A stretch of 45,861 nucleotides of DNA from a virus, in the IMG/VR virus record IMGVR_UViG_3300031251_000040, positions 1 through 45,861 of that record; one strand, given 5' to 3'. Positions 33,918 to 45,024 of the stretch are shown here, piece by piece. The notes beneath the pieces are model-generated. The model was not told where the DNA came from and did no database searches. It saw only the letters and a program-made list of their open reading frames with translations. The position numbers were made by a program, and so were the translations under genes. Each line of letters begins with the position of its first letter. Within the stretch, counting starts at the first letter, position 1.

Positions 33918-33946
33918 TTGCATTCATATTCTTCATGGTATATCCT
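33918..33946 (+). promoter_or_regulatory. Candidate promoter giving a leaderless regulator mRNA
   Basis: TTGCAT (33918-33923), a 17-bp spacer, and TATCCT (33941-33946), then only 7 nt to the ATG at 33954. The predicted transcript would start at or within a base of the start codon. No ribosome site is seen upstream. This resembles phage repressor genes transcribed without a leader, such as lambda cI from PRM. Confidence 0.5.
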
Positions 33947-33953
33947 AGCCTCT

Positions 33954-34166
33954 ATGCATATAAAAACCGTTTCCGATTTCCGCTTCCTAGTTTCAGGCGC
34001 ACGCCAAGCCAGACCTATGACTCAAGTAGATCTGTCCATAGCTTCTAAAGTCTCACAATCGGCCATCAGTAAGCTAGAGAGCGGCGTAACCGATCAGCTC
34101 ACACTTGAATCCTTCCTTAAGATCTCAAAGGCCCTGGGGTACGAAGTAACCCTTAAAAAGGTATAG
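33954..34166 (+). CDS. XRE/HipB-like HTH regulator
   Basis: 70 residues. A compact HTH domain spans about 8-60: FLVSGARQARPMTQVDLSIA, then the recognition helix SQSAISKLESG, then LTLESFLKISKALGYEV. The ATG at 33954 is chosen because the next Met would remove helix 1, and a TTG at 33918 is part of the -35 box. It probably dimerises and binds operators in the adjacent non-coding region, controlling the switch between the divergent blocks. It resembles a Cro-type or antitoxin-type regulator. No toxin partner is recognised unless the next gene serves as one. Confidence 0.75.
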   Translation: MHIKTVSDFRFLVSGARQARPMTQVDLSIASKVSQSAISKLESGVTDQLTLESFLKISKALGYEVTLKKV

Positions 34167-34170
34167 CCAG

Positions 34171-34500
34171 ATGAAAAAACAAGCATGCAATTTTGGCGAA
34201 AAGAAATTTAGAGCATTGATTGAAGGAATCAACGGGTCCGCATTCACGCATATCGATTTAGAAAGAACAACGGAAGACCTGGATGAAATTTGGGAAGCAC
34301 TTGCCGACTTTAAAAAGTTAAGTTCTAAGCAAAGAATATCAATCATCGATGAATTCAGAGATGAAAGAGATTTATTCGATAACTTCGACCAATCTGACGT
34401 CGCCTGGATTGTTTGCCGACTAATGGATGATAGTGAGCTTGACTTCGCGCAAAGTAACGCAAGTACGGCGCAAAGATGGACGACTGAAAAAGGCCGCTAA
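34171..34500 (+). CDS. Hypothetical protein after HTH regulator
   Basis: 109 residues, starting 4 nt after the HTH gene and so in the same transcript. The N-terminus is basic (MKKQACNFGEKKFR); the remainder is acidic and helical (EDLDEIWEALADF, ISIIDEFRDERDLFDNFDQSD, CRLMDDSELD). No family recognised. Its close pairing with an XRE/HipB-like gene could indicate a toxin-antitoxin-like or regulator-cofactor pair, but no toxin motif is visible. It is followed by a terminator at 34564-34591. Confidence 0.6.
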   Translation: MKKQACNFGEKKFRALIEGINGSAFTHIDLERTTEDLDEIWEALADFKKLSSKQRISIIDEFRDERDLFDNFDQSDVAWIVCRLMDDSELDFAQSNASTAQRWTTEKGR

Positions 34501-34563
34501 AATTTAAAACCCGAAGCAGGGGGCAGTAATTAAAAAAAGCGAAGGCAAACCAAAGTAACTAAG

Positions 34564-34591
34564 GGCCGGGGCCACAATCCCGGCCTTTTTT
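34564..34591 (+). terminator. Rho-independent terminator
   Basis: GGCCGGG (34564-34570) and CCCGGCC (34579-34585) form a GC-only stem with an 8-nt loop, followed by six T residues. It ends the two-gene HTH transcript and isolates it from the operon that begins at 34918. Confidence 0.9.
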
Positions 34592-36727: not shown

Positions 36728-36931
36728 ATGGCAAAGAACATCACAGCACAAGTATTAGGCGGCTCACCAAAAGTTATCGAAGCTGAAACCGTTCGCGACG
36801 CTTTCGACCAACTCGGTCTATCAGGCAATTACACGGCAGCAATTAACGGCGAGACTGCGTTAATGGATAGCTCGTTAAAAGACTATCAGCACGTATCTTT
36901 CGCGCTATCTGTCAAAGGTGGCCGTAAGTAA
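36728..36931 (+). CDS. Ubiquitin-like (beta-grasp, ThiS/MoaD-type) protein ending GG-RK
   Basis: 67 residues. The strand-helix-strand pattern ITAQVLGGSPKVIEA, TVRDAFDQLGL, YTAAINGETALMDSSLKD, VSFALSVKGG matches ThiS/MoaD/prokaryotic ubiquitin-like proteins: a strand, a 'Thr-Val-x-x-Ala' helix, the 'Val/Ile-Asn-Gly' turn, and a C-terminal strand leading into Gly-Gly. Two residues (Arg-Lys) follow the Gly-Gly, so a peptidase must trim it before activation, and a JAB protease is encoded 1.7 kb downstream. The ATG follows AAAGGAAC. A terminator lies between it and the enzymes, hinting at higher expression. The fold is called from pattern, not computed. Confidence 0.72.
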   Translation: MAKNITAQVLGGSPKVIEAETVRDAFDQLGLSGNYTAAINGETALMDSSLKDYQHVSFALSVKGGRK

Positions 36932-36974
36932 TTTTACATTCAATCGAGTAGATTGATTAAAGAATGAACCCAAT

Positions 36975-37007
36975 AAAAGGGCTAGAGGTAACACTTTAGC
37001 CCTTTTT
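36975..37007 (+). terminator. Attenuator/terminator between tag gene and enzymes
   Basis: AAAAGGGCTA (36975-36984) pairs with TAGCCCTTTT (36997-37006), a 10-bp stem with a 12-nt loop, followed by TATTT. It ends or attenuates transcription 40 nt after the ubiquitin-like gene and just before the pentapeptide-E2 gene, so the small protein may be made in excess over the enzymes. Confidence 0.75.
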
Positions 37008-37023
37008 ATTTAGAAAGGTTTAC

Positions 37024-38667
37024 ATGGATTCGCAGGAAAATTCTGGGACTGAGGCAGCCCAAGACATTTTTAGGGCTCAAACGTTAGTTTTGGCAAGTCT
37101 TTATAATGATGGGCCCAGACCCATAGTGGAATCTCGACAATATCAAAATTTTTTGACGCAAGCCCTAGCCGCCCGAAATATACGTTTTATAGACCTATTT
37201 AATGCGTTAGGCACGGAAAGAAACAATATGGAAGAAATCAAAGAAATGAAAGCAGAGGAAAACTCAGAGCCAATTAAACCTCTTTTCAGTGAGGCTAAAT
37301 TACAATTATTGGAGAGGGCCCACAGGAACAAGGGGGATGTTACTTTTGCGAATCTTGATCTTCGTGGGGTTAACTTTTCTGGGAGGAGTTTTGCGGGTGC
37401 GGATTTCTCGGGTTCAAATTGTGAGGGAGTAGACTTTGACCGCAGCCAGTTGAAAGCTTGTAATTTCCAAGGGGCTAACCTTAGAAAGGCTGAATTTAGG
37501 TTTACAGATTTAACTGAGTGCAATTTTGAGGGTGCCGACCTGTCCGGCGCAGTAATCTATACGAACAATGCCGTTAGTCTAAAAGCGAGAGATGCTAATT
37601 TTGAGGGAGCAGAATTAGGGCCCTCAATTTTTGACCGTAGCGACTTTAGAGGGGCCTCTTTTGTAAATATCATAGGCCATAGGGCATGTTTTTCATACTG
37701 CGATTTTACGGGTGCTGATTTTACGGGTGCTAGATTAGATGAGGCAAATTTAATAGGGGCAATTTTAAACAATGCCAATATGACTGACGCTACCATGCGA
37801 AAGGCTCACTTCTCGACTGACCCCTCTATCGACGGATGGATTCTTAAGAACACGATTTTACTAGGGACATCTTTAGAAAAGCTTACCCCTCGCCCGTTCA
37901 ATAAAGCAAATTTCTTGCACGTAATCGCTGCGACTGCGGAAGTAAGAGAGCTTGTTAAAGACCTAACCACAGAGGAAGAGGTTCTTAAGGCCATTTTTGA
38001 ATTCAATCAAAAACCTAAACCCAAAGCACCAAAGCGACGCCAGAATAGAAGCTCCGTTCTTTTCGTCAAGGCTTATAACGAAAAGATTCAAACCGACTAT
38101 ATTGCCCAGCTACTTCGGATTACTGAAGCTATTAAAACAGCGGACCGCAGGACATCCATTGGCACTATCCGTCTATCATTTCAAACGCCGCAACCGTTGC
38201 CGCCACTCATTTCACCAGATATTTTTGAGCACCCTCTTTTCAAAGTGAGACGCATCAAAGAAATTATTAAGCGTGGCAGATCTCTAGGTACGGTTATTCG
38301 GGTTGAGACACTGGAAGACGTTTTCTACACCTGGGAGGGCAATAAAATAAACGCTGGTAAGTTTAATTTCATCATTTCTTTGGACCATCTAAATATTCGT
38401 TTCATTCCGATAGAGGAAAACTTTACAGCTAGCGCAGGGCCCTACATCCATAATCAAGATGTTTGCTTGGGCGCTAACTCTGACTCAGTTTACTCTAAAA
38501 TTCGGAATGGCCAGATTTGCGATGCCTTAACCGAGCTATACACGACGATGACTCGTTTTAACACTTCAAGTACCCCTTACGTTGGTATTGACACGTTATT
38601 TCAGAGTGCAATCGATAAGAGATTATTCCGTAATAACGGCAATTTAGTGAAAGTAGAGGCTATTTAA
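37024..38667 (+). CDS. Pentapeptide-repeat protein with E2-like C-terminal domain
   Basis: 547 residues. N-terminal helical part (1-100); a right-handed beta-helix of pentapeptide repeats at about 105-263 (LDLRG, VNFSG, ADFSG, CNFQG, ADLSG and so on); a Lys/Pro/Arg linker (about 325-345); then a domain at about 410-547. The last domain has strands KFNFIISLDHLNIRFIPI, then PYIHNQDVCLGAN with H476 and C481, and a helical tail ending with SSTPY. The His-x4-Cys-Leu-Gly element preceded by a beta meander resembles prokaryotic E2/UBC-like families of ubiquitin-like operons. A pentapeptide-E2 fusion is unusual; the repeat could select targets. AAAGG precedes the ATG, and it overlaps the JAB gene (TAATG). 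Confidence 0.7.
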   Translation: MDSQENSGTEAAQDIFRAQTLVLASLYNDGPRPIVESRQYQNFLTQALAARNIRFIDLFNALGTERNNMEEIKEMKAEENSEPIKPLFSEAKLQLLERAHRNKGDVTFANLDLRGVNFSGRSFAGADFSGSNCEGVDFDRSQLKACNFQGANLRKAEFRFTDLTECNFEGADLSGAVIYTNNAVSLKARDANFEGAELGPSIFDRSDFRGASFVNIIGHRACFSYCDFTGADFTGARLDEANLIGAILNNANMTDATMRKAHFSTDPSIDGWILKNTILLGTSLEKLTPRPFNKANFLHVIAATAEVRELVKDLTTEEEVLKAIFEFNQKPKPKAPKRRQNRSSVLFVKAYNEKIQTDYIAQLLRITEAIKTADRRTSIGTIRLSFQTPQPLPPLISPDIFEHPLFKVRRIKEIIKRGRSLGTVIRVETLEDVFYTWEGNKINAGKFNFIISLDHLNIRFIPIEENFTASAGPYIHNQDVCLGANSDSVYSKIRNGQICDALTELYTTMTRFNTSSTPYVGIDTLFQSAIDKRLFRNNGNLVKVEAI

Positions 38668-39626
38668 TGAAAATTTCAATACCGTACCATATTTATGAGC
38701 AAATTCAGTTTTACGTCGATAAGTCAGACATTGAGTGTTCAGGCCTAGGAAAGGTTGTTGTAACCCCGGAAGGATACGCCGTTACAGAGATTACCCTTCT
38801 AAAGCAAGTGAATACCTCAACGCATACGGAAATCGATTCTCATGCGGTAACGAAGGCCATGTATGACCTTCGAAACTCAGTAGGGGGCCTATATTTTTGG
38901 TGGCACTCACACGTAAACATGGGAGTTTTTTGGTCTAATACTGACATTGACACGATCAAAGAAATTGGAGCACAGGGGCTTTGTGTGGCCGTTGTGTTTA
39001 ACAAGAAAAAAGAAATGAGGGGAGCAGTATGGCTCAAAGGTACAGAGTTAAGCCCCCATCTTTATTTTGATAATGTCGCTACTCAAATTGTTCACAATAT
39101 CGCTACCGAGGAAACTAAGAAAGCGTGGTCAGCCGATTTTGAGGATAAATGTAAGCCAAGGGCCGTAAATGTCGTTGACCCCTTTAACAAAGATTACACG
39201 GGGAGCAACTTAGCTAGAATCGGGCATCAAGCGGTAGAGAATGCCGCCAGAAATGCCCCTAAAGCTTACTTTGACCTGCCCCATTTTGAGACAAAGCTAG
39301 AAGATGCAGATAGAAAGCTTCTGAATGCTTTAAGTCAGGATTTAGTTTTTGCTATCTCTGAAAGCGCTGTGGATTCGACGTTAGAGCAAATTATCCCGAT
39401 TTTAAAACGGGCTAAAGCAAGCAAAACGGATCGTCGTAACGCGATTATCGAGTATAAAAACATGGCCCTAGAGCAAAAAGAGTTCCTAATGGAGCGAAAT
39501 GATTTAATTGAAAAGGCGTGGGGCCAAAGGGACGCAGACGATGTGGACGCCGAATATGACCCAAACGAAGAGAACTATGCCCATCATGATGATATTCCCG
39601 TTCATGACCGAAACAAAATGCAATAA
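38667..39626 (+). CDS. JAB/JAMM-family metalloprotease
   Basis: 319 residues. E23 (IECSGLG) and the HSH-x7-S-x2-D motif (H80, H82, S90, D93) form a complete JAMM zinc site. Residues 1-135 are the MPN/JAB domain; the rest is helical and acidic with an Asp/Glu-rich tail. In ubiquitin-like operons such enzymes trim the tag precursor or release it from targets. Here the tag needs removal of Arg-Lys, which fits. It begins one base into the stop of the preceding gene and is followed 11 nt later by the E1-like gene. Confidence 0.88.
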   Translation: MKISIPYHIYEQIQFYVDKSDIECSGLGKVVVTPEGYAVTEITLLKQVNTSTHTEIDSHAVTKAMYDLRNSVGGLYFWWHSHVNMGVFWSNTDIDTIKEIGAQGLCVAVVFNKKKEMRGAVWLKGTELSPHLYFDNVATQIVHNIATEETKKAWSADFEDKCKPRAVNVVDPFNKDYTGSNLARIGHQAVENAARNAPKAYFDLPHFETKLEDADRKLLNALSQDLVFAISESAVDSTLEQIIPILKRAKASKTDRRNAIIEYKNMALEQKEFLMERNDLIEKAWGQRDADDVDAEYDPNEENYAHHDDIPVHDRNKMQ

Positions 39627-39637
39627 GGAGAAATCAA

Positions 39638-40345
39638 ATGTTAATTATGAGTAATACACCTTTAGAAGTTGCTAACGACCTACGAGACAAGAAACACTTA
39701 ACGCGTCATTTTGATTTAATTTCAGGCGATGGGCTCAAAAAACCCATCACAGTTATTGGGGCGGGCGGTATCGGCTCGTGGGTAACTTTTGCACTGGCTA
39801 AAATGGGCTTTGAGCATATTCGAGTCTATGACCCCGATAAGGTAGCCATTGAGAACGTCGGCAATCAACTCTATGGCATTAGCGACATTGGCAAATACAA
39901 GGTCGAGGCTTTGCGCGAAATTTGTTTAAACGTGGGATGCGAAATCAAAACAGTGCCCATGTTATTTTCACCCTTAGATGCTTGCGCAGTCGAGGGCATC
40001 GTGGTGTTAGCCGTTGATTCAATGAAAGCCCGTGCCGAAATTACAGCGGACCTTTGCGAGGATGTTGTCATGATTGATGGCCGCATGGGGGCTGAAAAGA
40101 TTCTCCTTTATACGGCCTTTGATGAGCCTACGCGCGACATTTACGCTAAAAGCCTATATTCTGACGACGAGGCCGAAAAGACGCCTTGCACTGCCAAGGC
40201 CACGAGTTACTGTGCTTTAACTATCGCGGGGCTTATCGTTGGGCAGATCAAGTCTTTCATCCAAGGGCAGCAAACTATCAAAAATATGAGTATGGATGCG
40301 GCTAGTGGGGCATCCATTCGCTTCGCTCATGCCGCTATCCAATGA
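39638..40345 (+). CDS. E1/ThiF/MoeB-like adenylyltransferase
   Basis: 235 residues. A Rossmann nucleotide loop VIGAGGIGS (39-47), an ATP-binding acidic pair D65/D67, the ENVGNQLYGISDIGKYKVEAL segment with K88, and PCTAKATSYCA with C184 and C192 (a candidate thioester cysteine) are all in E1-like order. The Arg usual in the N-x-x-R-Q motif of MoeB/ThiF is Asn76 here, a change I recall in other JAB-linked prokaryotic E1-like proteins. It should adenylate the exposed Gly-Gly end of the ubiquitin-like protein and form a thioester. AAGGAG lies before the ATG (39638). It is too short for an E1 with a separate adenylation-cysteine insertion. Confidence 0.88.
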   Translation: MLIMSNTPLEVANDLRDKKHLTRHFDLISGDGLKKPITVIGAGGIGSWVTFALAKMGFEHIRVYDPDKVAIENVGNQLYGISDIGKYKVEALREICLNVGCEIKTVPMLFSPLDACAVEGIVVLAVDSMKARAEITADLCEDVVMIDGRMGAEKILLYTAFDEPTRDIYAKSLYSDDEAEKTPCTAKATSYCALTIAGLIVGQIKSFIQGQQTIKNMSMDAASGASIRFAHAAIQ

Positions 40346-40506
40346 AACTAGGGCAACGGGTGAGGATATTAAGCCCCGTTTTAAAGGGGCACATAGGCAC
40401 AATTAGACAACGGACGGGAGAAGGAAATTTTGTGGTGGAGGTTCTTAAATGGGGCTCATCGCAACAATTTGTTTTCTCCCGTAAAGAATTAGAGGTTATT
40501 CAGTAA
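40342..40506 (+). CDS. 54-residue KOW/SH3-like small protein
   Basis: The ATG overlaps the TGA of the E1-like gene (ATGA, 40342-40345); TAA is at 40504-40506. The sequence pattern GQRVRILSPVLKGHIGTIRQRT, FVVEVLKWG, FSRKELEVI matches a KOW/SH3-like barrel as in small phage proteins and translation factors, where it binds RNA or protein. Coupling suggests co-expression with the cassette. Whether it participates is unknown. Confidence 0.65.
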   Translation: MKLGQRVRILSPVLKGHIGTIRQRTGEGNFVVEVLKWGSSQQFVFSRKELEVIQ

Positions 40507-40645: not shown

Positions 40646-40682
40646 AAACCCCTATACGGTTGACGACGTATAGGGGTTTTTT
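40646..40682 (+). terminator. Terminator ending the cassette operon
   Basis: AAACCCCTATACG (40646-40658) pairs perfectly with CGTATAGGGGTTT (40667-40679), a 13-bp stem with an 8-nt loop followed by more T residues. It lies between converging plus-strand (to 40643) and minus-strand (to 40712) genes; the A-run on its left side makes it potentially bidirectional. Confidence 0.92.
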
Positions 40683-40711: not shown

Positions 40712-43063
40712 TTAAATCTCTTGATTGCCTAATCTAACCGTTAAATTGGCAAAGTATACAACCCCGCTACTTGCGTGTTCGTAAACCCCATTTTTAAAAA
40801 GTTCTTTAAATAGCAAATGCTTTCTAAATTGCTGGCCGATGACTTTCTTAGCCGTTCGGTACACTAGGGGCCTCATCGCCATTTTGCCTACCTCATAGAA
40901 TAATCGATCCCCGGTAGACTTACCGTCATCATCGTAAACGGGCACCCCGTCACTTTTTAATTGGTCCCAGAAATCCTTTTCAGGTGAGCTTGCTAGCTCC
41001 CAGTCCCTCAGAGACTCCTTTTTAGCCTCAGTCTGTAGGTACGCCCCTCCCGACTCACTAAGGCTCAAAGCGCCTTGAATAGCGAAGTTTAAAACGTGCT
41101 CTAGCTCCTTCTCTAAAATTTGCTCGTGAAGGTTTCGAATAGGCTCCCTGATCTCTTGAGACTTTACTTCAATGAAGCTTACCCGACGTTCGAAAGGTTT
41201 AGCGTTACCCTCCCCAAGATTCGGTAAGTCATTCCCGGCGTAAAGATGGACTGGCGGGAGAGTAGCTTGCACGGCGTCACGGTTCTTTCTCTCAATTTGA
41301 ATAGGCACTTGATCGATAACTTTCTTTAGAACGTCATCAGTGAGAGGGAACTTTGTAGGGATATCGAGGTCATAGTTAACTCTCTTACCCATCGTCTGAT
41401 GCAAATTGAAGCCGAATAAACGATTTGGGGAGACGCTGGAGCAGTTTTGAATACCCACGAGATTTAAAGCAACCTTAGCAATTGTAGACTTACCACTATT
41501 AGCTTTGCCTAGGATAAAGAAAATCTGAGGATGTACAGGAAATAGAAGGGCACCATACATTTGAGCAAGTAGTCTCAAAGTTTCAGGGTTATCTTGAGAG
41601 ACTTGTCTGAGTAGCCCTCGAAATAAACCTTCAGGAGGGGAATAATCCCCCCCTTCCAGTTTGTTCGCCGCATTAAGTGGGCACAAAAGAGGCAGCGAAT
41701 AAGTAAGTAAATCGCGCTTGTCATGAGGCTTTAGCCATACTTTGCCCTCATTTAGCACGAGCGTCCCATTTTTAAAATTACAGAGGTGTTTCTTTTGAGT
41801 AAAAATATCCTGGCTAACTTGCGAGATACAGACTCGGAACAAGTTAAAAGCCCCTTTTACTTTCTTATCCGTGGCAGAGTCCCCAAAAAAACGAATAATA
41901 ATCTGCATAATACTTTGGAAATTGCCCTTCTCCAAATGCTTCCAATAGCCATTACCGGAATCCCAGACGAATAAGTCTTCGCCACAAGCTATGATGGAGT
42001 CTCCAAAATGCGTCACAAGCTTACGTGCTACAGAAATTTCCGTCTCATCTTCGCCGCTAATATTGGCCGATAGCGCCGCCTCTTCTCGTTTCTTTGTCGC
42101 GTTATTAATAAGCTCTAAGCCGCCGTGAATCTGACGGTAGACCTCACCTAGAGACATAATGGTATGGAGGTCATTAAAATCGGTTGGCTTTAAAGCCTGA
42201 ACCGCTTCGTCCTCTAAATTAAATTGAGGAGTAATAAAAGCCTCACCGCATTTTTGTGCAGTTAGAATGCCAGTGTTTCTTTCTTTCCATTGGTCATTAT
42301 CAGCTAATACAATGATTTTCTTGTCAGGGTGTAGCGCCTTCATCGCCTTAACGACATGAGGCATGTTCCCCGAATTGAACGCGCAGATAACGATAGGGCG
42401 TTTATTCTGTTCTTTGAAGGCCATGGCAACACTAGCGCAAGTTACATAGCCTTCGCCAACAAAAATAGTGTTAGTCGTTCCGGTTGAAACGACATGATAA
42501 CAGCCGGAAATTCGGCCCCCAGCAAGAAAATATTTATCGCCCTCTGGTGTAATTCGTTGATAGTTCCAAACAAAGCCGCGTTCGGCAACCATAGGAATGA
42601 TTAAGGTGCCGCTTTGGTCTATGTAAGTACCCTTTTGGGTCTCAATTTTCTTTCGGGTTAAATAAGGGCTATTTACAGCGTTAACATAACCGCTAGAGCG
42701 CAACTGTTCGATGAACTTTTGAGCTTCACGAGCTACTCGCTCGTTAATAACTAGCTTCTCTTTCTTCTGTCTGACATCCTCTTCTTTCACCCCTTTCTCA
42801 ATCTCTTGGATAATTTCAAGGGGGTCAATACTACCCTCTGGAAGCTCGTCAACGGGCTCCCAGAGGGTAAGTACGCGGTTTCCATCCTCCCCTAGTTCTA
42901 ACCCTGAGTAGGAACCGACGATTAGAACATTAAATAAAATCATCCTAATGGTTAGCGCATAGTGCTTTACCCAAACGGTACCATGGTTTGATTTAGTTGA
43001 AACTGTAGTGTTTGGTTTGATAGACGATGGATCAATGCCTAGTTGAATTAATTTTTCGTTCAT
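40712..43063 (-). CDS. Primase-helicase (TOPRIM plus SF3/D5-like helicase)
   Basis: 783 residues from the ATG at 43063; an upstream ATG at 43090 lies inside the likely promoter. A TOPRIM domain has VGEG (Glu about 204) and LADND (Asp 255/257). A D5-like N-domain (about 380-500) precedes a superfamily 3 helicase with Walker A GKANSGKS (519-526) and downstream NDLPN-type sensor (GNDLPNLGEG). The protein should prime DNA synthesis and unwind the fork. No zinc-binding N-terminal domain is visible. It is the only gene on the minus strand in this part of the genome, with its own promoter and convergent terminators, so its expression is separate from the other replication genes. Confidence 0.88.
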   Translation of the reverse strand: MNEKLIQLGIDPSSIKPNTTVSTKSNHGTVWVKHYALTIRMILFNVLIVGSYSGLELGEDGNRVLTLWEPVDELPEGSIDPLEIIQEIEKGVKEEDVRQKKEKLVINERVAREAQKFIEQLRSSGYVNAVNSPYLTRKKIETQKGTYIDQSGTLIIPMVAERGFVWNYQRITPEGDKYFLAGGRISGCYHVVSTGTTNTIFVGEGYVTCASVAMAFKEQNKRPIVICAFNSGNMPHVVKAMKALHPDKKIIVLADNDQWKERNTGILTAQKCGEAFITPQFNLEDEAVQALKPTDFNDLHTIMSLGEVYRQIHGGLELINNATKKREEAALSANISGEDETEISVARKLVTHFGDSIIACGEDLFVWDSGNGYWKHLEKGNFQSIMQIIIRFFGDSATDKKVKGAFNLFRVCISQVSQDIFTQKKHLCNFKNGTLVLNEGKVWLKPHDKRDLLTYSLPLLCPLNAANKLEGGDYSPPEGLFRGLLRQVSQDNPETLRLLAQMYGALLFPVHPQIFFILGKANSGKSTIAKVALNLVGIQNCSSVSPNRLFGFNLHQTMGKRVNYDLDIPTKFPLTDDVLKKVIDQVPIQIERKNRDAVQATLPPVHLYAGNDLPNLGEGNAKPFERRVSFIEVKSQEIREPIRNLHEQILEKELEHVLNFAIQGALSLSESGGAYLQTEAKKESLRDWELASSPEKDFWDQLKSDGVPVYDDDGKSTGDRLFYEVGKMAMRPLVYRTAKKVIGQQFRKHLLFKELFKNGVYEHASSGVVYFANLTVRLGNQEI

Positions 43064-43079
43064 ATTTGTGCCCGTACTT

Positions 43080-43108
43080 AGGTTAGGCATAAATTTTTAT
43101 GAAGGCAA
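43080..43108 (-). promoter_or_regulatory. Candidate promoter for the primase-helicase gene
   Basis: Read on the minus strand, TTGCCT (43108-43103), a 17-bp spacer and TAACCT (43085-43080) form a sigma-70-like promoter with a predicted start near 43073, about 10 nt before the ATG at 43063. It faces away from the promoter at 43121-43129, so the 70-bp gap is a divergent control region. Confidence 0.4.
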
Positions 43109-43120
43109 ACAAAATCTGTG

Positions 43121-43129
43121 TGCTACAAT
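43121..43129 (+). promoter_or_regulatory. Extended -10 promoter giving a leaderless mRNA
   Basis: TG-C-TACAAT (43121-43129) is an extended -10 element; only 6 nt follow before the ATG at 43136. No convincing -35 box and no ribosome site are seen. Transcription would start at the start codon. Confidence 0.45.
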
Positions 43130-43135
43130 ATAAGC

Positions 43136-43405
43136 ATGGATAAGGCGTTGAAACACCGTGGCTATATCTACTTCCTACTCGCTGAAAAAACAGATTGCGT
43201 GAAAATTGGATTCACTCGGACGACGATGGAGCGGCGTTTAAAGCTGCACACTCAATACTCTCCATACGATTATGACGTGCTAAAGGTCATTGAAGGCACT
43301 ATGCTTCAGGAGAGAAATCTACACAAAAGATTCATAAGGCTTAAGATTCGTGGGGAATGGTTCAAATATTCCGATGAGTTAAAGGATTATATCGAATCTC
43401 TCTAA
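43136..43405 (+). CDS. GIY-YIG-type (T5orf172/MUG113-like) protein
   Basis: 89 residues from the ATG at 43136; a GTG at 43118 lies inside the promoter. The pattern GYIYFLL, VKIGFTRTTMERRLKLHTQYSP, LQERNLHKRF, IRGEWFKY matches the GIY-YIG-fold family T5orf172/MUG113: first strand GYIY, second KIGFT, conserved Arg, conserved Glu and the EWF end. Many members are predicted nucleases. It is a short stand-alone protein, leading the plus-strand early block that runs across the contig junction. The stop codon lies in a hairpin (43400-43425). Confidence 0.82.
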   Translation: MDKALKHRGYIYFLLAEKTDCVKIGFTRTTMERRLKLHTQYSPYDYDVLKVIEGTMLQERNLHKRFIRLKIRGEWFKYSDELKDYIESL

Positions 43406-44309: not shown

Positions 44310-44695
44310 AAACAGAAATCAATGAAATTGCAATCAACGGGGAAGTTTACGTTAAAAAAGGAATTGAATCAAAAACAGCTTTCAATTCCGAAGGTAAAAA
44401 ATATCAAATCATTCGCACTTATTCGGCAGGTGTATTCGCCGGATATGTTGAAAGCGAAAAAACGGAAGGTGGATCAACACAAATGGTAGTTCGCGACGCG
44501 AGACGACTATGGTCTTGGGCCGGGGCCGCTTCGCTTTCTGAATTAGCGAAAAAAGGAACATCGAAACCAAATGAATGTAAATTTCCATGCGCGGTAGACC
44601 GCGTGGAACTAAAGCAAGTTATCGAAGTTTTAGATGTAACTGAAGCGGCTAAAAAATCAATTGACGGGGTTAAAGTATGGACGAATCACAACTAA
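44306..44695 (+). CDS. DUF6948-like phage protein
   Basis: 129 residues. The sequence IAINGEVYVKKG, IIRTYSAGVFAGYVES, RDARRLWSWAGAASLSELA, CKFPCAVDRVELKQVIEVLD matches a phage-specific domain that I recall as DUF6948: a beta-rich protein with a conserved AGVFAGY...RRLW-x-W...AASL core and Cys residues. The biochemical role is unknown. It directly precedes and overlaps the glycine-rich gene, a pairing I recall from other phages. Confidence 0.75.
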   Translation: MKTEINEIAINGEVYVKKGIESKTAFNSEGKKYQIIRTYSAGVFAGYVESEKTEGGSTQMVVRDARRLWSWAGAASLSELAKKGTSKPNECKFPCAVDRVELKQVIEVLDVTEAAKKSIDGVKVWTNHN

Positions 44696-45024
44696 ACGGC
44701 AGCGGCTTCAGCTACGGCGGCGGTTACGGCAGCGGCAGCGGCTTCAGCTACGGCGGCGGTTACGGCGGCGGCAGCGGCGGCGGCAGCGGCAGCGGCGACG
44801 GCAGCGGCTTCAGCTACGGCGGCGGCTTCAGCTACGGCGGCGGTTACGGCGGCGGCAGCGGCAGCGGCAGCGGCGACGGCAGCGGCTTCAGCTACGGCGG
44901 CGGCTTCGGCTACGGCAGCGGCAGCGGCTTCGGCGACGGCAGCGGTTACGGCTACGGCGACGGAGACGGCGACGGCAGCGGCAACGGATTCGTCTACGGC
45001 GGCAGCTACGGCGGCGGCAACTAA
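44677..45024 (+). CDS. Glycine-rich repetitive protein
   Basis: 115 residues. After MDESQLN almost the whole chain is built from Gly with Ser, Tyr, Phe and Asp (FSYGGGYG, SGSGFSY, GDGSGFSYGG), in a hexanucleotide-like DNA repeat (GGCGGCGGTTACGGC). Such sequences could form extended, sticky or phase-separating chains. The base composition is far richer in G and C than the rest of the window. It overlaps the DUF6948-like gene by 19 nt. Opposite-strand and other frames are long only because of the repeat. Function unknown. Confidence 0.75.
   Translation: MDESQLNGSGFSYGGGYGSGSGFSYGGGYGGGSGGGSGSGDGSGFSYGGGFSYGGGYGGGSGSGSGDGSGFSYGGGFGYGSGSGFGDGSGYGYGDGDGDGSGNGFVYGGSYGGGN

Follow-up and report, generated by a model that had tools for sequence, protein, structure and literature searches.

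Bacterial ubiquitin-like conjugation is known mainly as antiphage defence. PRTRC operons correspond to the type 6d operons of Iyer (2006), and an E2 is not known from the SAMP set of archaea. Four activities are encoded by Bil operons; BilA has two ubiquitin-like (Ubl) domains, the E1 has two adenylation domains and a Cys domain, and BilB carries a CEHH motif (PMC11354881). Type 6d operons consist of separate Ubl, JAB, E1 and E2 genes, and in lambdoid phages a Ubl (TAPI) adjoins a JAB protein, the TAPI/TAPK set being described without E1 and E2 (PMC1779556). Here, a cassette of four genes was studied in an IMG/VR virus record of 45,861 bases, which was analysed at full length and is called the window below. 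The genes encode a small ubiquitin-like tag, an E2-like protein, a JAB/JAMM isopeptidase and an E1-like enzyme. An earlier note, made from the DNA letters, had read them as a ubiquitin-like conjugation cassette, and this reading was supported by the analysis: the cassette as a whole is best explained as a probable phage-encoded ubiquitin-like conjugation pathway. All claims on the cassette are based on sequence and prediction.

The four open reading frames (ORFs) of the earlier note were recovered with identical boundaries at 36728-40345 on the plus strand, between the terminase and primase genes. Each begins with ATG and has an A/G-rich, ribosome-binding-like stretch upstream. The JAB start overlaps the E2 stop and E1 starts 11 bases past JAB, while the tag-E2 gap is 92 bases.

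The 67-residue tag was found to end in LSVKGGRK, that is, with the Gly-Gly pair that had been claimed, and trimming after Gly65 is predicted. The AlphaFold2 (AF2) model (mean predicted local distance difference test score, pLDDT, 84) had a strand-strand-helix-strands arrangement with a loose tail, and the top Foldseek matches of this model were Mth1743, TtuB, NEDD8, SUMO, ubiquitin and MoaD, so that the beta-grasp fold was predicted by both methods. The best PDB sequence matches of the tag profile (A2) were archaeal SAMP2 and PF1061 (E 1.2e-4 to 1.9e-4). K63-G64 was invariant among the 20 phage tags aligned, and the next residue was G or A. A tblastn search of named phage records with the tag gave no match. 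Because the window tag as the sole query picked up 19 homologues in the loci fetched by the JAB search, the association of the cassette genes is more than chance. In one of the related loci or records (designated by L-numbers in this analysis), there is a second ORF that resembles the tag but lacks the usual terminal GG, and an adenylosuccinate-synthetase-like gene follows it (L021:12042-13525; PurZ-like, possibly Z-genome DNA).

The window JAB protein carries E23, H80-S81-H82, S90 and D93, which confirmed the full set of JAMM metal residues, and all six residues were invariant in an alignment of 29 sequences. The JAB profile (A3) matched Rpn11-like proteins (1.7e-9), JAMM1 (3.7e-7) and CSN5; the PDB entry 5lda contains JAMM1 and a SAMP2 chain, the latter being the best match of the tag profile. 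The match of the window protein to Prok-JAB (E 2.8e-6) was under the curated cut-off, and routine annotation would therefore miss this gene. No match to JAB was obtained by tblastn in named phage records or plasmids. On the cassette, PADLOC gave only E1-E2 and weak JAB matches, and the PHROGs matches were confined to E1 and pentapeptide families, none of which has a known function.

The E1-like enzyme matched Pfam ThiF (3e-21) and was found to contain an intact GxGxxG loop, as expected from the earlier reading, together with the adenylation residues R23, D65, K88 and D127 and the catalytic C184. When 34 E1s from phages and related sources were aligned, R23, G41, G43, D65, K88, D127 and C184 did not vary. 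These positions presumably correspond to the catalytic residues of E1/MoeB, the PDB alignments shown stopping short of the Cys region. The profile of the 34 sequences (A6) was closest to UBA5 (3e-19), UBA6 and UBA1, ranked ThiF and MoeB a little lower, and also matched the Cap2 and BubCD adenylation domains.

The 547-residue protein, to which an E2-like His/Cys motif had been ascribed, combines two regions. Its N-terminal repeats, a feature absent from the earlier note, matched Pfam Pentapeptide (E 5.7e-31) and were seen in the window protein only, a scan of the remaining 34 E2-like proteins giving no match to them. Its C-terminal domain had no Pfam match of its own. The alignment of 35 E2-like proteins was anchored on the Cys motif, since the domain is internal in many relatives; Cys481 was invariant, and the shared motif was G...HP(H/N)xxxxGxxC(W/L)G...L..L..Y...PY. 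HPH or HPN was kept by most other relatives, typically 10 residues ahead of the Cys. We take this spacing, in the HPHVxxxGxxC form, to be that of the HPN..C motif of eukaryotic UBC enzymes. The PDB matches of the E2 core profile (A4), as listed down to rank 60, were all ubiquitin E2s (best E 0.0016), with alignments in register over HP-x-C and the next helix. In the AF2 model of the domain (pLDDT 85.5; predicted template modelling score, pTM, 0.77), the Cys lies directly ahead of a helix. When this domain was compared with PDB by Foldseek, 15 of the 16 best matches were E2/UEV domains; against viral models, the best matches were phage proteins, of which the named ones were uncharacterised.

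Several observations weigh against conjugation as the function of the cassette. The histidine of the expected HPN-type motif is replaced in the window E2 (GPYIHNQDVC), and the nearest relative, L011, likewise lacks it (CPYISHNRVC); of the His/Cys motif ascribed to this protein, only the Cys part was therefore upheld. With the E2 profile, a reversed-protein control reached E 0.0018, and hence the E-values of this profile alone do not decide. The Foldseek matches of the E2 domain to PDB were weak and non-significant (E 0.16, TM up to 0.44). Some of the 20 aligned tags terminate in KGA, not KGG, and a RING-type E3 was not found in the window. Considering the specificity of the matches, the register of the motif, the setting in an operon and the secondary structure in the AF2 model, it was concluded that the C-terminal domain is E2-like; its fold and catalytic Cys are indicated by profile and motif, the fold search being weak.

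The same families could also belong to a sulfur-carrier system, in which E1 would thiocarboxylate the small protein, sulfur would be donated to a cofactor or a tRNA base, and JAB would only mature the tag, as in ThiS/ThiF, TtuB/TtuA and Mec+/CysO. The tag and E1 do also resemble ThiS/MoaD/TtuB and ThiF/MoeB. However, in the main group the set is accompanied by a fourth gene, whose product has an E2-like domain with an invariant Cys, and the E1 profile places UBA5/UBA1 above ThiF/MoeB. Neither ThiG, TtuA, rhodanese, NifS nor cysteine synthase was seen among the window proteins scanned or noticed among recurrent neighbours, although host genes could still supply such a partner. A sulfur-carrier role is therefore considered unlikely.

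The recurrence of the cassette in other viruses was studied. The window JAB as the sole query retrieved 31 viral loci, and the window E1 retrieved five. With family profiles, all four genes were found in 25 divergent records, in 20 of which the order was tag-E2-JAB-E1; conservation of the order in homologous records was a condition that had been set beforehand for the conjugation reading. Among these 20, L014, L023 and L042 have the tag farther upstream, at some distance from the other genes, the tag of L040 is weak (E 0.02), and the E1 ORF of L012 spans only 115 residues. The order was tag-E2-E1-JAB in L016 and L017, and E1 was first in L030, L031 and L033. Additionally, in the large records L032, L034, L036 and L041, the gene ahead of E2-JAB-E1 contains a tag-like stretch, recognised by eye, that ends in AGG/SGG plus further residues. 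In 23 four-gene sets, mean pairwise identity was 22-38%, and the between-gene distances demonstrated that the four genes co-diverge (Mantel r 0.35-0.72, p = 0.0005). What the sequences show is the membership of the proteins in the four families, the active sites that they carry and the joint inheritance of the genes. The recurrence of the set, with intact active sites, in some two dozen widely differing viruses from the environment makes it probable that certain bacterial viruses tag proteins while they infect.

No Phage_integrase (tyrosine integrase) match was obtained in the 17 cassette records tested, and ParB_N was matched in three of them. The window has neither an integrase nor a ParB_N match and, as far as visible, it is of the lytic type that had been proposed. 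When 85,000 species of bacteria and archaea were scanned with the JAB signature, only two hits were obtained, L042 and L043; the signature was one seven-residue pattern, which more distant bacterial relatives may escape. In L043 (193-6047), a JAB-E1 pair at the contig end of a Candidatus Vogelbacteria metagenome-assembled genome is followed by genes that read as those of the ribosomal proteins S12 and S7 and of elongation factor G; it is likely a chromosomal relative in candidate phyla radiation (CPR) bacteria. No description of the phage set was found in a literature search whose coverage left out most subscription papers and preprints, and priority is accordingly not proven. A survey of protein-modifying enzymes in 224 jumbo-phage genomes mentions no such set (PMC7824862).

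We infer the following chemical steps, together with the lysine target and the roles of the flanks and of the stem-loop. JAB would first trim the two residues past the Gly-Gly of the 67-residue tag. E1 would adenylate the tag C-terminus with ATP and take the tag as a thioester on Cys184, after which the tag would move on to Cys481 of the E2-like protein and be attached by it to lysines of target proteins. The target would be chosen by the lineage-specific E2 flank, namely, the pentapeptide beta-helix in the window and cysteine-rich, zinc-finger-like tails in other lineages. JAB would also take the tag off again, and the stem-loop after the tag gene would keep the tag in excess over the enzymes.

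The E2 flanks look like target or partner modules swapped around a fixed catalytic core. Cysteine-rich tails or N-termini were found on the E2-like proteins of L007, L040, L036, L041, L015, L018, L027 and L011. At L007:4616-8540, a tag gene is followed by a motif-less E2-like protein with a cysteine-rich finger, by an E2 whose long cysteine-rich tail is RBR-like, and by JAB and E1; this arrangement is a candidate for a built-in E3 module. At L019:9582-10334, a second E2-like gene with an intact HPY...C motif (HPYVSSSGGICFGD) directly follows E1. Acidic C-terminal tips resembling those of single-stranded DNA-binding protein (SSB) were observed on the E2-like proteins of L013, L020, L028, L031 and L029 (EEDNADSDEGAPF, DDSDVF, DEEESGF, SDDDSNVPF and HADIPY). 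The enrichment of acidic tips among E2s was weak (4/32 vs 8/388, p 0.009), and the window E2 has none; an F/Y end was found in 8/32 E2s vs 30/388 (p 0.0045). Such a tip could be a replisome docking tail.

A second feature absent from the earlier note is the strong stem-loop between the tag and E2 genes. Inside the 92-base gap, a 13-bp hairpin (AAAAGGGCTAGAG/CTTTAGCCCTTTT) is followed by U-rich sequence (fold z -5.7). A strong hairpin (z < -2) was found in the tag-E2 gap of 15 of 19 cassettes vs 11 of 50 other same-strand gaps of similar length from the same loci; the median z was -3.5 vs -0.7 (Mann-Whitney p 8e-7). The hairpin sequences of the relatives were unrelated to one another. Because only some of the hairpins have U-tracts, termination, attenuation and mRNA end protection are all possible. 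The simplest reason for the stem-loop would be that more tag than enzyme is made.

The neighbourhood of the cassette in different phages was compared. The D5/DUF5906-type primase family of the window was found in six other cassette loci (L011, L014, L016, L018, L022 and L023). DnaB-like and DnaG-like genes lie upstream in L031 and L033, with HIRAN in L031 as well, and RecA-like and ParB-like genes lie near the cassette in L032 and its kin. In crAss-like Steigviridae, E1 and JAB genes are located between the genes for DNA primase and uracil-DNA glycosylase and are preceded by genes resembling the tag (with an extension) and E2 (HSH...C). Since genes for primase, helicase, RecA or uracil-DNA glycosylase repeatedly lie near the set in phages that are not related to one another, replication-linked substrates are favoured, and our best guess is that the substrates are proteins at or near the replication machinery. 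However, phage genes cluster by timing, and the replication neighbourhood is therefore only moderate evidence; the substrates are the least certain part of the best explanation.

Alternatively, the cassette might be a superinfection weapon or a means of counter-defence, by which structural proteins of competing phages would be tagged in a Bil-like manner or host immune proteins would be tagged or inactivated. Bil has the same four activities (PMC11354881) and, according to the title of Hor et al., cited in PMC12135933, interferes with phage assembly. Variable E2 flanks would fit changing targets, and host proteins are modified by many phage accessory enzymes (PMC7824862). In contrast, lytic-type phages that differ greatly have retained the set, near replication genes, and its E2 and E1 types differ from those of Bil. 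This alternative, which concerns the target rather than the chemistry and overlaps the best explanation, is regarded as possible but doubtful. The fuller proposal is of a complete virus-owned Ubl pathway (tag, E1, E2 and isopeptidase), apart from all bacterial operon types tested, old and recurrent in tailed phages of the lytic type, among them possibly the crAss-like phages of the gut, that would tag replication-associated or host proteins in infection, the target being set by E2 flanks that can be interchanged. We would give it an even chance of being correct.

Genes annotated as "thiamine biosynthesis protein" and "metalloprotease" were observed in the crAss-like phages L002 and L052-L057 and in Flavobacterium phage FpV4 (L003). 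They probably belong, as E1 and JAMM, to a tag system that is related. The gene order in these phages is shared with the cassette, with a beta-grasp-like protein bearing an extension, an HSH...C E2-like protein, JAMM and E1, whereas their tags differ in ending in KIKSGA or KSGG plus a long extension. Comparison of the crAss-like E2 and tag profiles with the cassette families gave weak matches (E 9e-4 and 0.06), which are suggestive of kinship, and the crAss-like E2 profile had no match in PDB.

Features of the cassette and its surroundings in the window
Feature	Position	Strand	Basis
UBL, 67-residue ubiquitin-like tag (beta-grasp)	36728..36931	+	AF2, Foldseek, profile matches
Stem-loop with U-tract, terminator/attenuator-like	36975..37009	+	folding z-score
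E2-like protein, 547 residues: N-terminal pentapeptide-repeat region and C-terminal UBC-like domain	37024..38667	+	Pfam, Cys481 alignment
Pentapeptide-repeat (beta-helix) region of E2-like protein, residues ~105-290	37336..37893	+	Pfam
E2-like core, residues 409-530, Cys481 in PYIHNQDVCLG, HPN histidine lost	38248..38613	+	profile, AF2, alignment
JAB/JAMM isopeptidase, 319 residues	38667..39626	+	profile, metal ligands
E1-like tag-activating enzyme, 235 residues, single adenylation domain with Cys184	39638..40345	+	Pfam ThiF, profile
54-residue ORF, weakly KOW-like, overlaps E1 stop by 4 nt	40342..40506	+	

The 54-residue ORF is a possible operon member; no conservation of it was seen in relatives. 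Structural genes (large terminase, portal and virion protein) occupy 9-33 kb on the minus strand, and the plus strand carries replication genes for an SNF2-type helicase, an RNase T-like exonuclease and a family-A DNA polymerase. The Toprim/D5 primase gene (40712-43090) is on the minus strand and adjoins a gene for a protein with a T5orf172/MUG113 GIY-YIG-like domain (43118-43405). Strong terminator-like hairpins at 34561-34588 and 40646-40679 may mark the limits of the plus-strand region and of the primase gene. A small helix-turn-helix regulator followed by a 109-residue ORF (33918-34500) resembles a toxin-antitoxin pair, and a low-complexity Gly/Ser/Tyr-rich ORF with GGGSGSGDGSGFSYGG repeats (44677-45024) is open in several frames. 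No Rfam family and no tRNA were found in the window, and promoter-like sites close to the cassette were not more frequent than by chance. No terminal repeats were found in the record, which may be incomplete.

If the conjugation reading is true, a phage-side pathway with all four activities would make protein tagging a viral tool as well. The cassettes would also be a reservoir of stand-alone E2s with a near-eukaryotic HPH-x-C active site, bearing on E2 origins, and a source of compact conjugation enzymes. Because an invariant Lys directly precedes Gly-Gly in the tags ending in KGG, trypsin would leave the standard Lys-epsilon-GG remnant, detectable by routine proteomics. Bacteroides intestinalis is a host of crAss-like phages that carry a similar set of genes.

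The cassette was compared with the known systems. Like Bil, it unites Ubl, E2, E1 and a JAB-type deubiquitinase in a single small operon. However, the phage set lies in phage genomes, its 67-residue tag has one Ubl domain instead of the tandem found in BilA, its E1 is a single-domain protein of 235 residues, and its E2 family is of the HPH-x-C type, the CEHH motif of the Bil E2 being present in none of the 35 phage E2-like proteins.

Capture of a PRTRC-type plasmid operon by a phage would account for the same protein classes, and E1 matched PRTRC_ThiF (46 bits), the only PRTRC model among the matches listed for the window. This score was under the cut-off of 144.75 and under that of ThiF itself. 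None of PRTRC_A, B, C and E was among the matches listed for the window proteins or, in the relatives, for the 25 commonest of 67 families. Type 6d operons also differ in an alpha-helical protein, in a JAB with an N-terminal domain, for which there is no room in the phage protein because its JAB motif begins near the N-terminus, and in an E2 without the classical His but with a later one, whereas the phage E2 family retains the classical HP-x position. PRTRC membership was rejected since PRTRC models other than ThiF were missing from the matches listed and the ParB partner was absent from the window and rare among the relatives (see above); the resemblance to PRTRC claimed earlier held for composition only, and capture of such an operon is very improbable.

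With CBASS Cap2/Cap3 and Iyer types 6a-6c, the cassette shares E1, E2 and JAB chemistry; it differs in having E2 and E1 as separate genes and a dedicated Ubl gene. A CD-NTase-like family was not recurrent among the cassette neighbours, and a metallo-beta-lactamase partner was not noticed there either. The archaeal SAMP2/JAMM1/UbaA set shares a small tag with a C-terminal GG and provides the closest PDB sequences to the tag and some of the closest to JAB, but in the phage cassette an E2 is adjacent.

Finally, a phage-borne Ubl and JAB are shared with lambda TAPI/TAPK, and such a pair, as carried by lambdoid phages (PMC1779556), could be needed for virion maturation in tail assembly. In that set, NlpC/P60 is fused to JAB in a tail gene context, whereas no NlpC/P60 match was found in the cassette proteins and the window cassette lies outside the structural genes, on the opposite strand; moreover, E1 and E2 are foreign to TAPI/TAPK as described. 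A tail assembly role is hardly credible. Therefore, on the features tested, it may be concluded that the cassette is not a member of the Bil, PRTRC, CBASS Cap2/Cap3 or lambda TAPI/TAPK systems and is predicted to work like a ubiquitin-like conjugation system.

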